Part shown: positions 3,472 to 52,835 of the stretch, piece after piece
How positions within the stretch are numbered: the first letter of the stretch is position 1
Layout: each line of letters opens with the position of its first letter
Assembly (NCBI GenBank): GCA_004369085.1
Contig: ML210227.1
Coordinates: 1 to 64,000, forward strand
DNA: 64,000 nt
Source of the DNA: Coprinopsis marcescibilis
Lineage: Eukaryota > Basidiomycota > Agaricomycetes > Agaricales > Psathyrellaceae
Direction: 5' to 3'
Program-made: the position numbers and the translations under genes
Notes under the pieces: model-generated
What the model was told of the DNA's origin: nothing
What the model saw: only the letters and a program-made list of their open reading frames with translations
Database searches by the model: none

Positions 3472-3971
3472 TTAAATGTTGAGCCATTTTCCGAAGCTTT
3501 CGGCCATGGAAGGAATAGGAGAGGAGGGTATGTCAGCAGCTGCGTCATTTATAATTAATGTTCATATCCAATGGGAGTAGATAAAGACTTACTGACGAAC
3601 TGGGATAGGGACGAAAAGAAAGAAAGGTTGTCAGATTGGTTATGTGAACTCAAATCAAAATGAAATAGCCTGACCATTGCAATCTCCTGCCCGTCCTTGA
3701 AGAAGGCAACGGTAGCCCTCTTTCTGTCATTGCCGGTGGTACCGAATTGTGGGCCAGAAAGCTCGCCTGTGTCGTTGTGGTAGAGGATCCCAGCGTAGAG
3801 GATAACTGGAAACCTGTCTGTCAGGCAGGAACGCAGTGGATGGTAGATGAGCCCTTTACCTTCGCCGACCTTGACTTCGAACTTCTTTCAGATGGTGGCA
3901 ACACTGACGGAGTAGATGAAGCCACTGTTGATGTTGAGGGTACCAGTGGTAGTGTTGCTGCAGGCCGGCAT
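3472..3971 (-). pseudogene. Family X, copy 3, with an in-frame stop codon
   Basis: The four-exon plan is fully kept: 3971-3860, 3805-3675, micro-exon 3599-3593 (TTCGTCA) and 3539-3472, with correct phases and splice sites, for 106 codons. Codon 28 (bases 3890-3888) is TGA, between 'VATI' and 'KKFEVKVGEG'. Paralogues have His or Lys there. A C-to-T change of an Arg CGA codon would explain it. Nothing else is broken, so the lesion is recent, or a sequencing error, or it truncates the product to 27 residues. The tail differs from the consensus (ends 'GKWLNI'). Confidence 0.7.
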
Positions 3972-26383: not shown

Positions 26384-27114
26384 TTAATCCAACTCTTCAA
26401 GCGCAAATTCACGCCCTGCGATGTGACTATGTCGGTCATCCCTATCGATCGTACCCTCGTTCCTCCTTCTCGCAGTACCGTGACGCCCCTTGAAGTCATC
26501 GTGGTCAGGCTGGTTCTCGTTCACAACTCTTCCAACAAGGTCCACATCGTCTCGCAGCCCCAAGGTGGAAGCGACATTCGAAACCGTGCCGGCAACCTTG
26601 CCAACCTTGCTCGCAACGTTCTTTACCTTCTTGATGATGTTACGGAGTTTGAAAGGTTGTGGAGAGCGGGCTTCGAGGGAGGGGGATTCGAAAGCGGAGA
26701 TCACGTCGCGAATATCAACGTACTCCAAGTCTTCTGTGAGGTCGCGAAGGTCGTAGTGATCGTCTTCGCCGAGCTCTCGGATATACATGTTGCCCTCTTC
26801 GTCTCGGAGGAGCAGGGCAGCTGCAGGTGCGACTTTGACAGCGGTCTTGGCGATCTTTCCTACAGCACGCAAGGCTTTCTTGAATGAGAACCGGGCGTCA
26901 AGGTCGTCAAAGTCGCGTGCAACTGAGACAGAGTCTGTGTAACAGGATTTCAATTTCCGAGTCAGCACTGAGGTGTTTGCTGCATACGAGCTGGAAGAGG
27001 TAACTTACGATGACGGCCGGCGCTGTGCGTTCCATGAGCAAAATGGCCATACGGTGCTGCCAGGACAGAGGTGGACGCGATGGACGCGATGAAGAGGGTG
27101 GCGATGAGTGTCAT
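26384..27114 (-). CDS. Secreted precursor with cationic amphipathic segments
   Basis: Two exons, 27114-27009 and 26934-26384, giving 218 aa. Residues 1-20 form a signal peptide (MTLIATLFIASIASTSVLAA, cleavage near A-A-P). After a His-rich bit come two Lys/Ala/Val segments: 'KKALRAVGKIAKTAVKVAP' and 'RNIIKKVKNVASKVGKVAG', both able to form amphipathic cationic helices. They are separated by an acidic stretch ('LGEDDHYDLRDLTEDLEY'). R-D, R-E and E-A-R steps recur at segment borders and might be processing sites. The tail is His/Arg/Asp-rich. This layout resembles a proprotein in which acidic spacers mask basic peptides. Antimicrobial or membrane activity is inference only; no family was recognised. 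Confidence 0.75.
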
Positions 27115-44506: not shown

Positions 44507-45291
44507 ATGTCCAACGTATTCGTGAGTCTTGATTTTTTTCGATAAAAGGCGGTTGCGCTTGGGCGGCGATATGGGGGATAATGTTGGATGGAAAATACCT
44601 GGAACACGACAAGCAAGAGGCGGACGATCCAGAAAACAAATCGATGGCCACAAACCCGAGCACAACCACCTGTTTTGTCCGTGAATGAACAAGAGCTGAA
44701 CATTTGCTTCTAGTTTGACATCACCTTCGACGGCGCCGATGCCGGTCGTATTGTCTTCAAGCTCTACGACGACGTGGTCCCAAAGACCGCCAAAAACTTC
44801 CGTGAATTGGCTACTGGCCAACACGGGTTTGGCTACCAGGGCTCGTCTTTCCACCGAGTCATCCCCAACTTCATGCTCCAGGGTGGTGATTTCACCAAGG
44901 GAAATGGAACCGGTGGAAAGAGCATCTACGGCGAGAAGTTTGCTGGTGAATGCCCTGTCTTTGAGTTACATTGGGAGAAGCGACTGAACGATCTGTAGAT
45001 GAGAACTTCCAGCTCAAGCACACCAAGCCCGGTCTCTTGTCGATGGCCAACGCCGGCAAGAACACCAACGGATCACAATTCTTCATCACCACCGTCGTCA
45101 CCTCTTGGCTCGATGGTGCCCATGTCGTCTTCGGTACGTAATTTCTTCCCGTTTTTCGAACACGTAATCTAACTTGCTGTTCAGGCGAGGTCGTAGAAGG
45201 CTTGGACATTGTCAAGGCAATCGAGAAACTCGGAAGCGCCAGCGGTAAAGTCAACAAGAAGGTTACGATCGCCAAGAGTGGTGTCGTTTAA
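44507..45291 (+). CDS. Cyclophilin-type peptidyl-prolyl isomerase
   Basis: Exons 44507-44521, 44714-44945, 44999-45133 and 45185-45291 give a 162-aa single-domain cyclophilin (MSNVF then [17 protein letters not shown]). Catalytic and cyclosporin-binding residues are present: '[16 protein letters not shown]' (Arg and Phe of the active site), '[20 protein letters not shown]', '[16 protein letters not shown]', ending 'VTIAKSGVV'. The length is usual for cytosolic cyclophilin A. The first coding exon is 15 nt. It is the left member of an inverted pair with the gene at 45956-46723. Confidence 0.95.
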
Positions 45292-45955
45292 ATCGGTGGA
45301 GATGAAACGATGAAATGAAGTTTATCAGGACTTTTTTTTTGGCTTCTACAAGCCACTATCAGTGATACATCTGTAAATTGAAAGCAAAATTGTATCAATA
45401 CCAGTGTTTGGATTCGGATTTTTCAAGGCTGGAGCGGGCAGTCTATCGATTTGTACCAGAAAGTAGGCATCGGATCAGATGATACTCCAAAGAACAACAA
45501 TTCTTGAAAGCCCTGTTATGTAATTTTTAATTATCTCACTAAGCTCGTCTGTGCACTGTGCAGTCTCAAACTCCATGTGCTTTGTGAATGTGATGTGTGA
45601 TACAGGTTCTCAGACTGTCGCTCAGATCGCTCGCAAAGATGACGAAATCCGTGACAAAATCTCGCGATTCAGATTCCGTGAGATAAACAGCGAGCCCAGA
45701 AAGATAAGTCAACGACGGAATCACCACAAGTTGGATATGCACTGATGACTTGGTCTTGGAGGAGCAACGCAGGCGGTTAGGTTTCAATGTTTATGCACCA
45801 TTATATTTATGCGGCATTTCTACTTTGGTTTCGGTACAGTGTACTCTGTAGAAAGCCCCAGAGTAGGTGCCGTTTCTTTACATCTTCAAAGGCTAAATTA
45901 ATTTGCAGCACCTATTGAGAAGAGGAAGAGAACGAACTTACCTATTGTGGGTTCG

Positions 45956-46723
45956 TTAGACGGTGCCACTCTTGGCGATGGTGATGGTGGCCTTTGGGGT
46001 ACCGCTGCTGCTCCCGAGACCCTCGATTTTCTTGACGAGGTCCATGCCTTCTACGACCTCGCCTACGCAGCCAGTCAGATCCCCGTTTATAAATCGGAAA
46101 GGAGATACACACCGAAGACTACATGTGCCCCGTCAAGCCAAGAGGTGACGACGGTGGTGATGAAGAATTGTGATCCGTTGGTGTTCTTGCCGGCGTTGGC
46201 CATCGACAAGAGACCGGGCTTGGTGTGCTTGAGCTTGAAATTCTCATCTACAGCACGTTTAATCACTTCCCTCAATATACTAAAAGGCGGGGAAGTCACC
46301 AGCAAATTTCTCGCCGTAGATGCTCTTTCCGCCAGTCCCGTTGCCCTTGGTGAAATCACCACCCTGGAGCATGAAGTTGGGGATGATACGGTGGAAAGAT
46401 GAGCCCTCGTAGCCAAACCCGTGTTCGCCAGTGGCCAATTCACGGAAGTTTTTGGCGGTCTTTGGGACGACATCGTCGTAGAGTTTGAATACGATACGAC
46501 CGGCGGGCTCGCTATTAATGGTGATATCAAACTAGAAACAAGTTGTTCAGTATTCATTTTCAGCCATTGTCGGGCGAACTAGACCCTTTCGCTTCTTCGG
46601 TGTCGTTGACCATCACTGCCATCACCGACGGCGCAAATCGCCGACGTCATCACGCCGCCCTCCAAGCGCGCCCACCATTCGTAGATTTAGGAGGAAGTAG
46701 AGACTCACGAAGACGTTGGACAT
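45956..46723 (-). CDS. Cyclophilin-type peptidyl-prolyl isomerase, second copy
   Basis: Same plan as the neighbouring plus-strand gene: a 15-nt first exon MSNVF, then '[20 protein letters not shown]', '[20 protein letters not shown]', '[20 protein letters not shown]', and the last exon with '[20 protein letters not shown]' ending GTV. All active-site residues are kept. The two genes converge, with 664 bp between stop codons. Most differences are conservative, so both probably make active cytosolic enzymes. Confidence 0.93.
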
Positions 46724-48558: not shown

Positions 48559-48764
48559 ATGCGCCTCAGCTTCAATCTTTTATCGGGTGCCGTAGCCATT
48601 GCCGTCGCCTCTTACACGGCCAGTGCTACTCCTGGTAAGCAGCTATATGCTCTCGGCCCAAACCTAACCCGGCTCACAAATTGATACCAGTTGGATTCCT
48701 GCCCAACGCTGCTGTCAGGCCACCCCCGCCGTATGAAGGTTGCCCCGGGCGCATTTGTCTGTAA
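48559..48764 (+). CDS. Secreted peptide precursor A, Cys-x3-Ile-Cys-Leu end
   Basis: Exons 48559-48634 and 48691-48764 (phase-1 intron of 56 bp) give 49 aa. Residues 1-24 are a signal peptide (MRLSFNLLSGAVAIAVASYT, then ASATP). The mature part is about 25 residues and Pro-rich; it ends RPPPPYEGCPGRICL followed directly by the stop. The two Cys are four residues apart and would form a six-residue ring if bonded. A TATA box stands about 80 bp upstream (48477). Too short for most gene finders. The same arrangement recurs in three neighbouring genes (49466, 51458, 52529), which is the main support for calling it a gene. Confidence 0.72.
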
Positions 48765-49465
48765 GCTAGGGCCTGAGAGCTCCGCCAAGGTATGCTGCGC
48801 CAAGATGACTACCGGAAAGTCTCCGTAGCTAATAACTTATAAGCCTCTGCCACCAGGTTTGGTTCGTTGAAATGATAGGAGCGACTGGAATTTCTGCTAG
48901 TTTCTGGAGTTGCTGCTCGCCATGAACACTTTGTTCTCTGTAGTCTGTCTCCAGAGATCACCTGTACATCTGTTTATATAGCGCTTGTACTCTTTATAAA
49001 AAATGTCTCTCGTACGTTCCCGCGTTTACCACAAGGTCTTATCTTCGGCATCTCTCCCCGGAACAAAAGGAATCCCTTGGGACTTTACCTTCCACCACTT
49101 GAACCGTCTTCTTTATTAAATACCCTCCCCCAGGCTTGACAGAGCGTGAGTTTGTTCCGGTTCCGAAGGACTTGAACTCTCCAGTATTTGCAGTAAATGG
49201 TCTGTCCCCGCTCAAGCGTGATTCTCTATAGGGCCGGTTAATCCACAACAAGCGTGAACTGAAACTCAAAATTGTATGCTGCAAGGACATTGTCGCAATG
49301 TCCTTTTAATGGTTTATGGGTCCCAAGAGTACCTTGGCTCGGGATGCGGTATTATAAGAAGCCTCAGAGGGGCTTATCTTGACATCAGACAGCAGCTGTC
49401 TCCTTTCTCCCTTGACACCGCCAGTCCGACGTCAGCAGCGTCGAAAGGACTACCCCGTATCACAT

Positions 49466-49686
49466 ATGCATTTTGTGAATTTTCTATGCGGGGCTCTTGG
49501 AGCTCTGTATCTCGTAGCGGCAGTGCAATCAGCGCCTAGTGAGTATATCATTGCTTGCACCATCGTATCAAGCCATCTAATGCAGAAATATTAGTCGATT
49601 CAAAAGCAGAACCCGCAGCAGAGCTCGCTAGGCCAGTTCCGCCCGATTCAGAAGAAGGGGGATGCACGCCATTCATATGCATTTGA
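49466..49686 (+). CDS. Secreted peptide precursor B, Cys-x3-Ile-Cys-Ile end
   Basis: Exons 49466-49538 and 49595-49686 (phase-1 intron of 56 bp) give 54 aa. The signal peptide is MHFVNFLCGALGALYLVAAV followed by QSAP. The mature part, about 30 residues, is acidic and Pro-containing, and ends ARPVPPDSEEGGCTPFICI-stop. Its central hydrophobic 'GALGALYLVA' is close to 'GVLGVLYLAG' of precursor C. A TATA-like element (TATTATAAG) lies about 110 bp upstream. The intron sits just after the predicted signal cleavage site, as in A and C. Confidence 0.74.
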
Positions 49687-51457
49687 AGAAATTTACATTG
49701 GGCTCTGTCGTTCTGAGATCCTATGTGAGTTTATCTCGGCTGGAACGCTTGTTTACCAAGTACTGATATTGCAGCTCGCCTTTTTAGGAATTCGAAGGGC
49801 CACAATTAATCTCTGTGTAATAATAGTGACAAATAAAAATTTCTCTAGCGTTGCTTTCAAGAGAGGGGGGCTGTAAATGGGTTCAATGAAAGCACCAGTA
49901 TCTCAGGTATGATGCAAGGACTTTGCTCGGATATAAGTAGAGGAATAACCGACAACGATGCGCCACGTCAGTTCAGTCCAGGCCCGGGTCAGCGCGTCTT
50001 ATGCACATATTGATATATGACAATTAACCCGTGTTGACTGGCATAGCACGGTTACGATATGTACAGTGACTCTGGCAACACGAGAGGTTCAGCCAGTGAC
50101 AAGTGCACATAAGCGCCAAAGACTTTGCGGCGAGAGGGCATACACTACTGTGTGTTGAAGTCTCGTTTCACAGTAACCGATAAACATTTGGCATCTCCGG
50201 GATAGTATTATCACCGTAGCACACTATCTCGCTACAGACTCAGTGCTAGGAGTTTACGTTCAAACTTCAGCCTCGCTCCCAGAATGCGGCGTCTCGCTGG
50301 TCTTGGCGCCAAGCAAGCGCCCGAGCTTCCGAATGTATCCTCATCTGTGTGAAGATAGTCGCCTCCGGAGTCCGAGTTACCCCATATCCTTGACGTACTA
50401 TATGTTAGCACCTGAGTCCCTAGGTCCGTTTTGCCCGGCTCTCTCGATCATGCGCCACATAATGTTTGCGCTGGTGGAGGTTTGCCCACGTCACTGCATG
50501 GTCATTGCCAGCCCACTACAATTGCCGCGTTCCTAAAGGTTTGCATGTGCTCGAGGCCTACAGATACCCCACAGACTCCAGCTGCAATCGAGGGAATCCA
50601 ATCCACTTCGGATTTACTCCGTCTGGACCAAGCTTGGTCATGGGCAAAATCGTCTCATCGTGGCTTGAGCTTGGTCCCAAAGGATATTATAGGGAGGTGC
50701 AACTTGCTTGAAGGCTTTGATGCAGTTCCCAACTCCTTCTTCAGCTATCTGGCACCCGGAGACCCGGATAATTTCATTGTAGCGTAGAAATTTGACAATC
50801 ATCAATCTCTCGAAGTTGATACACCAGTGGAGTGAGTAACTTCAACTTGAGGCTTCTAAGCCCGCACGCCTAGCCAATGGAAGTCGCTTCTTTGTCTATG
50901 TCCAGGGTATATCTTGCTCCTCAAGCCGTGCTTGAGTGACTTCCATTTGGATCCATCTGTCTAGTGGTGCTCCGGATCCATGCTTCTTTGCATGTACCTG
51001 GTATATGTCAGTACCACGATGTTTTGAAGGGCTTCCCAGTCTCGGCATCTCTCTTCACAACAAACCATGATTTCTTGGATCCGTACATAGCAGCACTACA
51101 TGGCACTGTACCCAATACCTCCCGATCTGCCATATGTGACAGAGTGTGTGTTTTCTCCAGAGCCGGAGAACCCTGAATTCACAGTTTGCGACCAAGAGCA
51201 GGTCAGGGGAGAATCTTTCCGAAGTCGCCAAGTGAATTTCTATCGGTCGGGTAATCGATGACAATAGTTGGGGCATGGAATAGCACTGCATACTCTGAGA
51301 AAGGGTGATATGTCTCAGGAGTACCTGGTTCTAGATTTGCAGGGGCGGACTCGGGAATGTAGTGGGTACGTATAAAAGCGTATCACTGTCTTGATATCAG
51401 TATCTCTGTTCTCGTTCCTCCCCCTTGCCATTACTACCGCTCAGGCAACAACCAATT
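49687..51457. other. Spacer between peptide genes B and C
   Basis: No further peptide gene with the signal-exon/Cys-exon plan was found on the plus strand here. Open frames at 50243-50787 overlap each other and have no recognisable features. Confidence 0.35.
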
Positions 51458-51711
51458 ATGCTCTTCAAGCAATCTGTAAACGTTGTACTTGGTGTACTCG
51501 GGGTCTTGTACCTCGCAGGAACTGCATATTCCACGGCATGTGAGATTCTTGAAACAATTCGTAGTAGATATTATCTGACGAGTGTGCGGAAATAGTCGTG
51601 GCTACAGCTGAGCCTGAAGTGACAGCCGAGGCGATTGTCAAGCGCGATACTACTTCACTCATGAGCGGCAGTCTTCCTAAGCCTTGTCCTCCGGCATGCC
51701 ATCACGGTTAG
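51458..51711 (+). CDS. Secreted peptide precursor C, variant end
   Basis: Exons 51458-51539 and 51596-51711 (phase-1 intron of 56 bp) give 65 aa. The signal peptide is MLFKQSVNVVLGVLGVLYLA followed by GTAYSTA. A propeptide-like stretch with Glu/Ala/Val ends in Lys-Arg (a Kex2-type site), after which the last 21 residues contain 'SLPKPCPPACHHG'-stop. The Cys pair is three residues apart, not four, and the Ile-Cys-Ile end is replaced by Cys-His-His-Gly. So gene organisation is kept while the terminal motif has changed. TATA box GTATAAAAGCG at about 51370. Confidence 0.7.
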
Positions 51712-52528
51712 GGAATATTTGTGCGTGCTCAATTTCTTGTTGAATTTGAGTAGTTGCTCAACTTTGGAAATAGACCGTCTTTTATAAAGATCTCAGCGCT
51801 ACATTGCCCCGATGTATATGGTTAAAAGAGAGCTAGATAACATACAAAGGTGTTTAAATATATACGAGATGTCACCGATAACCCTGTGTCAAGTCAGCTC
51901 AGCGTACTCCGCACGTCTTGAATGTTGAGTGTACGTCTTAAGGCAACCATTTTGGTGGCATGAGAGTGGCCCAATGGGGAGCGCGGTGGGCACCTTTTGC
52001 GGTCAATCGAGTGTTGCAATGAATCCTACCTGTGAGCGCAACAGTGCTATACATCAACTTCAGAGCGAGAAGGACGATTTGCTGGTTTACAGAGCATCTG
52101 CTATGTGAAACACAGATCGGTACCTGCGGTAGCATAGCGACACATCCTTGGTATCTGGGTGACGATCATCCAAAGCTTCTAATTTCCCGTAGCTTCCTGG
52201 TACAAGGACAGAACTCAATTGCGTAGAAGGGCTTGGGATTACAGCATAATAGTAAACTTGGGGACCCGAGCTCAGCCCTATTTAAACTTTTGCGAATGAG
52301 TGCGGCTTCTGGCAACAAAAGCCGCGCAAGTTGCAAGACTCAGGACGAACCCATAGCCGACCATCACGAGACGCGCTGATGCATGTCAAACGCTGAAGTG
52401 TATAAGTGTATCCCTGCGCGAGTGCTCACAGACAAAGGTTTCAACTTCACAGTCCTGGTTCGACTGGCGGCACCAACCATACTCTTTTACTCTTAACAAA
52501 GAATTCAGTACCCATCCTCTCCAGGACC

Positions 52529-52835
52529 ATGTCGATCACGCAGTCTAGCTTGAAGGCATATGTCTGGGTCATCGCAGTTCTTATCTTCCAGACGACCAGG
52601 CCCGTCTTCGTCGCCGCTGCACCAGTTACGCAGCTGGTTCCGTCGCTACTCAACAAGCCCGTACTGGCAAAGCCTAAGTTACTCGTTCCCCTCAAGCCTG
52701 AGATTTTGATACCTCCCGGTACGCTCTTCATATGCACAAGATGATGTCAGACCGCTTACTTGTGGCTCAGTTAGGATCCCAATAGTCAAGCTTCCGGTCT
52801 TTAACCCCGAGTGTTCTCGAAGTATCTGTATCTAG
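52529..52835 (+). CDS. Secreted peptide precursor D, Cys-x3-Ile-Cys-Ile end
   Basis: Exons 52529-52718 and 52771-52835 (phase-1 intron of 52 bp) give 84 aa. N-terminal hydrophobic segment 'AYVWVIAVLIFQTT' with a likely cleavage after 'FVAAA'. A Pro/Leu/Lys-rich middle part (KPVLAKPKLLVPLKPEI) precedes the intron. The last exon reads 'RIPIVKLPVFNPECSRSICI'-stop, matching the end of A and B in Cys spacing and final residues. It has the longest pro-part of the four. A TATA-like TGTATAAGTG is at about 52400. Confidence 0.7.

Follow-up and report, generated by a model that had tools for sequence, protein, structure and literature searches.

Four plus-strand genes of two exons each, located at positions 48559-52835 of the Coprinopsis marcescibilis contig ML210227.1, encode predicted small secreted peptides. 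They lie within a stretch of 64,000 nucleotides, called here the window. The four genes, designated g1 to g4, are a real and clearly delimited cluster of orphan genes for secreted peptides, and three of them have an unusual common C-terminus, in which two cysteines may close a small ring at the very end of the chain.

Gene models and the common C-terminal tail

The initial annotation described four plus-strand genes within 4.3 kb, in each of which a phase-1 intron of 52-56 bp separates a signal-peptide exon from a short last one. We recovered these models at the same place, and the tandem arrangement is supported (Table 1). The introns of g1, g2, g3 and g4 are 56, 56, 56 and 52 bp long, all in phase 1, and contain branch-point-like elements (CTAAC, CTAAT, CTGAC and CTTAC, respectively); TATA-like hexamers are found at -82, -114, -87 and -128 from the start, both kinds of element being matches to loose patterns counted without a chance control. 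A hydrophobic N-terminal stretch is present in all four proteins according to a home-made filter, which is not SignalP and combines a Kyte-Doolittle window with consensus splice sites; its thresholds were 1.7 for the scan of the Ile motif with a true stop, 1.9 for the Val-variant scan and 2.2 for the scan of open Cys-pair tails (see below). The signal-peptide-like first exon of g4 also encodes a long Pro-rich basic stretch. The products of g1 and g4 are identical, letter for letter, to the deposited C. marcescibilis hypothetical proteins FA15DRAFT_705839 and FA15DRAFT_705840, the latter including the 52-bp intron; these records are outside predicted gene models for two of the four genes. Other splice choices exist, namely four possible acceptors in g2, an 86-bp intron in g3 and a 67-bp intron in g4, and in every case the C-terminus is the same. 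Possible introns in the 3' untranslated region follow g1 and g2, and the same rule found none after g3 and g4.

The products of g1, g2 and g4 end with C-x3-I-C-[IL] directly before the stop codon (CPGRICL, CTPFICI and CSRSICI). The common C-terminal Cys pair of the initial annotation is therefore found in three of the four genes, and conservation, which had been extended to the last eight residues, comes down to just four positions: C at -7, I at -3, C at -2, and I or L at -1. The three residues inside the loop are different in each protein (PGR in g1, TPF in g2, SRS in g4). In g1, g2 and g4, the chain predicted to be mature has no cysteines other than the two of the tail, which enclose four residues, so that these can pair only together or with another molecule. 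If the cut is placed after the hydrophobic stretch, as we did, mature chains are 26-54 residues long, and their net charges in g1 to g4 are +1, -4, -1 and +5 (0, -2, +1 and 0 over the last 12 residues). Both g1 and g2 have R-P-x-P-P ahead of the tail. The earlier suggestion of a cyclic peptide, with the rest of the protein as its leader, is no more than plausible: no dibasic site that is common to g1, g2 and g4 and able to free the tail was seen, and KR occurs only in g3. An AlphaFold model of g1, made with no alignment, has a helix at residues 3-22 and is without secondary structure beyond it.

Table 1. Genes of the cluster and associated features (window coordinates).
Feature	Coordinates	Strand	Exons	Product	Remarks
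g1	48559..48764	+	48559-48634, 48691-48764	49 aa	Signal-peptide-like exon; Pro-rich; ends YEGCPGRICL-stop
g2	49466..49686	+	49466-49538, 49595-49686	54 aa	Signal-peptide-like exon; acidic, Pro-rich; ends EEGGCTPFICI-stop
g3	51458..51711	+	51458-51539, 51596-51711	65 aa	One internal KR; ends LPKPCPPACHHG-stop
g4	52529..52835	+	52529-52718, 52771-52835	84 aa	Ends FNPECSRSICI-stop
Upstream region of g2	49033..49465	+			Similar to g3 upstream; local z 15.5 (60 shuffles), 15.9 (300 shuffles)
Upstream region of g3	51027..51457	+			Similar to g2 upstream
Possible 3' untranslated region intron of g1	48790..48856	+			Donor, branch point and acceptor consensus only
Possible 3' untranslated region intron of g2	49725..49787	+			Consensus only

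Duplication within the cluster and frequency of the motif

On the evidence of its DNA, g3 is a tandem duplicate of g2, about 2 kb apart. In piecewise alignments, with local and global scores each compared to 300 shuffles, similarity is highest in the upstream regions (local z 15.9, global z 9.4) and is also seen in exon 1 (local z 3.5, global z 4.1), where 14 of the 27 base differences are at third codon positions over the 20 codons compared. The other 14 pairs of upstream or control regions, at 60 shuffles, gave z of at most 1.8 in 13 cases and 2.8 for g2 upstream against a control region. The tail part of exon 2, after its first 53 bases, is not similar (local z 1.1, global z 0.3), and no alignment at all was produced for exon 2 with free end gaps. 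Read plainly, these scores single out the coding stretch of the Cys loop as the part of g2 and g3 that no longer aligns.

With TAA, TAG, TGA or TGG as the next codon, C-x3-I-C-[ILVM] occurs 54 times in the 36.3-Mb genome, and its reversed form 26 times. A true stop ends 37 of the 54 (three of the 37 also have a stop inside the motif). Three of these 37 are in the cluster, each with a two-exon signal-peptide model, and one of the remaining 34, L032, passed the same filter, with a score of 2.31 compared to 2.47, 2.35 and 2.78 for g1, g2 and g4; for three others, the models were one-exon frames of 13-19 residues. When 37 matches were placed at random 20,000 times, 2 of the placements had three matches on the same strand within 4.1 kb; this procedure takes no account of duplication. 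The L032 locus is on genome contig C36 at about 118.1 kb and has CYVSICV-stop behind its two-exon signal-peptide model.

Two wider scans used a Cys-pair tail pattern that may miss some tails. The open form, C-x2-5-C-x0-4-stop, has 116 matches on both strands of 84 kb (the window plus 20 kb), seven of which passed the signal-peptide filter, and four of these seven are g1 to g4. Two more that passed this loose filter were rejected, one at 49999 on the minus strand (CHISICA) with a poor signal peptide, and one at 26907 that, by eye, belongs to a longer, otherwise spliced secreted-protein gene. Such a gene is read by eye on the minus strand at 26387-27112, starting with MTLIATLFIASIASTSVLAAP and having Arg-rich sites downstream. 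The loose filter was also passed by a plus-strand model of two exons at L095 (end at 3815), which starts with a strongly hydrophobic sequence (MEIFLLSFFALLFGLASAS) and has the tail CERTCAHR. With Val in place of Ile, C-x3-V-C-[ILVM] followed by a stop or TGG shows no excess in the genome (72 matches, and 68 for the reversed pattern). The matches of this Val variant with a true stop number 52 as counted from the list, and the 27 that were read, leaving 25, include one two-exon model (L080), an implausible poly-Phe chain, and four short one-exon frames.

Several results weigh against the interpretation of the four genes as one family of diversifying, ring-ended peptides. The product of g3 ends with CPPACHHG and does not have the C-x3-I-C-[IL] motif. 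No significant DNA similarity of g1 or g4 to the remaining genes was found in the shuffled alignments, so that the common descent of all four has to be argued from gene architecture and tail. Between g2 and g3, the intron is similar by the global score (z 3.3), and the local score (z 0.7) is not significant; whole exon 2 has a local z of -0.4 and a global z of only 2.2. The first 53 bases of exon 2 have a global z of 4.7 and a non-significant local z of 0.3, and the 53-base cut favours this part because it was taken from the end of an earlier g2/g3 alignment. The two scores also disagree over the 400 bases downstream (local z 4.2, global z 1.3). The tail of g1 is modelled by AlphaFold with low confidence (block means 53 and 51). 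The random-placement statistic is weakened by contig C10, where a triple of CQSHICL-stop motifs spans about 15 kb (58384, 63902 and 73671; L016-L018). No signal-peptide model over threshold was found for this triple, and its frames are short, mutually similar and likely to be repeat copies; in contrast, the exon-2 DNA of g1, g2 and g4 is not detectably similar. A receptor or peptide-modifying enzyme was not recognised near the cluster in a Pfam scan of only 10 open reading frames. We infer the disulphide ring, the processing and the function.

Searches for relatives and genomic surroundings

Protein-database searches with E up to 10 returned only g4 and g1 themselves (70 candidates scored), nothing (7 candidates scored), and only g1 itself (4 candidates scored); g2, which was in the queries of all three, and g3, which was in that of the second, brought up no deposited record of their own. 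These searches can detect only annotated proteins that have five-residue words in common with the query. Since genes of about 50 codons are often left without annotation, and records for g2 and g3 are missing, the empty searches are weak evidence of absence, and the peptide family is so far known from C. marcescibilis only. Protein searches of the same genome with g2, g4 and g3 as queries (g1 not being queried) found only these proteins and one weak match on contig C179 to g3 (E 0.735), which by reading is due to chance; diverged copies could have escaped, because even g2 and g3 missed each other. Three of the four proteins have no Pfam family, and g3 has one match below the cut-off (E 0.14; 12.2 bits, cut-off 25). 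Profile comparison with solved structures gave nine matches to unrelated proteins, at E 0.15-1.1. Titles and abstract openings among the matches listed in open-licence literature contain no description of this C-terminal ending. The split of C. marcescibilis from C. cinerea is placed at 131 or 181 million years in a comparative study whose abstract and text disagree (PMC10182949), so that even the nearest model species is remote.

The cluster is flanked on one side by two cyclophilin genes and on the other, at about 53.25-53.95 kb, by a gene that by eye encodes ribosomal protein eL20. The two cyclophilin-like genes, at 44714-46578, have opposite orientations (about 44.7 kb, plus strand, by eye; about 46.5 kb, minus strand, by Pfam match) and are possibly an inverted duplicate pair. 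A DUF2264 gene is found at 39.2-41.4 kb, and a stretch of masked sequence (N) at 57.9-58.2 kb.

Possible functions and comparison with known systems

The explanation we favour, with about as much belief as doubt, is that g1 to g4 encode orphan secreted, diversifying peptides that resemble urotensin II in their build, with a C-terminus that probably closes into a disulphide ring. The signal peptide would be removed in the endoplasmic reticulum, where the two tail cysteines would pair and so form a ring of six residues at the C-terminus, leaving a single aliphatic residue outside; closure of such a ring would be the simplest outcome of transit through the oxidising secretory pathway. The Pro-rich segment before the ring would stay as a flexible, protease-resistant arm of the released peptide, while the ring with its variable interior would be the part in contact with the target, and duplicated copies would diversify it. 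The peptides would most likely serve as extracellular signals or as self/non-self cues between hyphae, and less likely as antimicrobials.

A defence role is the rival closest to this. The products would then be Pro-rich secreted peptides with a C-terminal loop, acting on bacteria, fungi or animals like the Rana-box peptides of frogs. In favour are the tandem copies with an altered tail, and the mature chain of g4, which at our cut is Pro-rich with a charge of +5; in ranatuerin-2 peptides, the Rana box is a cyclic hexa- or heptapeptide at the C-terminus. The paper that describes it is, however, divided on whether the box is required for antibacterial activity, and the chains of the cluster are not uniformly cationic, either as a whole or over the last 12 residues. 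The spread of charge from -4 to +5 makes it less likely that all the peptides act on membranes and would suit ligands that each have their own target, and we consider defence peptides unlikely. Slightly less credible still is that an enzyme or a sorting step recognises the tail, as with CaaX in mating pheromones or the follower in some ribosomal peptides, and that the variable Pro-rich part is the product. The location of the conserved positions at the extreme C-terminus of mature chains of 26-54 residues would suit such a signal, but the 10 scanned frames showed no dedicated modifying enzyme, and a signal of this kind with C at -7 and -2 is not known to us.

The Pro-rich arm and the two cysteines would also agree with a structural role, in which the Cys pair links molecules together or to cell-wall proteins and the peptides are components of wall or matrix and not free ligands; but a Cys pair spaced by four residues readily forms an intrachain ring, and we regard this linkage as improbable. 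That the genes are products of chance or are decaying, and make up no functional family, is the least credible of all, and very improbable. Annotated proteins of other species gave no relatives, g3 is without the motif, and the unrelated L032 locus passes the same filter; but against this reading stand the clustering (2 of 20,000 placements), the filter results (three of three here against one of 34 elsewhere), the intron phase common to all four genes, the similar upstream DNA of g2 and g3, and the deposited models for two of the four.

Going beyond secreted ring-ended peptides, one could propose a basidiomycete ligand family with a C-terminal disulphide ring and tandem diversification of the tail, a convergent counterpart of the ring-ended peptide hormones of animals. 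We put this forward with considerable doubt; if true, the family would be a possible ligand set for orphan fungal receptors. Apart from the lipid-tailed mating pheromones, mushroom-forming fungi have, to our knowledge, few known secreted peptide signals. Short genes such as these can escape annotation, and a defined C-terminal signature together with exact gene models gives peptidomics and surveys of related genomes something concrete to look for.

Mating pheromones of the CaaX type have Cys at -4 and no signal peptide. The initial annotation had set the cluster apart from them, and rightly so, as g1, g2 and g4 have Cys at -7 and -2 and a signal-peptide-like exon. Qsp1 of Cryptococcus neoformans, whose sequence has no Cys pair, is an 11-residue peptide, unlike g1 to g4. 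Qsp1 is a basidiomycete secreted pro-peptide acting as a signal (PMC7537855). The ascomycete alpha-type pheromones are secreted and in some groups have a Cys pair, as do the tails described here, but usually carry several cores per precursor between KEX2 sites, unlike g1 to g4, and the mating pheromones of basidiomycetes are of the a-type only (PMC6339444). The KEX2-processed repeat proteins (KEPs), including the dikaritin precursors, are likewise fungal proteins with a signal peptide that give rise to secreted small peptides (PMC6339444, PMC9769878), and all four proteins of the cluster have a signal peptide by our filter. KEPs are recognised by at least three repeated fragments between KR, RR or KK sites (PMC6339444), whereas a reading of the four proteins found no internal repeats and at most one dibasic KR (in g3), and we reject membership. 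The IGY proteins of Dikarya are small and secreted and, as here, combine low overall similarity with conserved terminal motifs and a unified gene structure; but 105 of 107 are 187-268 aa long, most have three exons, and they are marked by an N-terminal IGY motif (PMC4367982). Proteins g1 to g4, of 49-84 aa, with two coding exons and by reading no IGY motif, are not members.

Two animal systems come near to the predicted design. Rana-box antimicrobial peptides have a C-terminal ring on a poorly conserved chain; they come from amphibian skin and have a helical part, while the chains of the fungal cluster are rich in Pro and differ in charge. Urotensin is freed by cleavage, and no counterpart of this step was recognised in g1, g2 and g4. 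The interior of the urotensin II ring is conserved, whereas that of g1, g2 and g4 is variable and its disulphide is putative. The likeness is in design, and we claim no sequence relation: urotensin II and the urotensin II-related peptide of vertebrates end with a six-residue ring and one aliphatic residue (CFWKYCV), like the ring predicted for g1, g2 and g4; the C-terminal cyclic hexapeptide of urotensin II is conserved on an N-terminal part variable in length and sequence; and the C-x4-C-[aliphatic]-COOH pattern of urotensin-like ring peptides is found in g1, g2 and g4, and not in g3.

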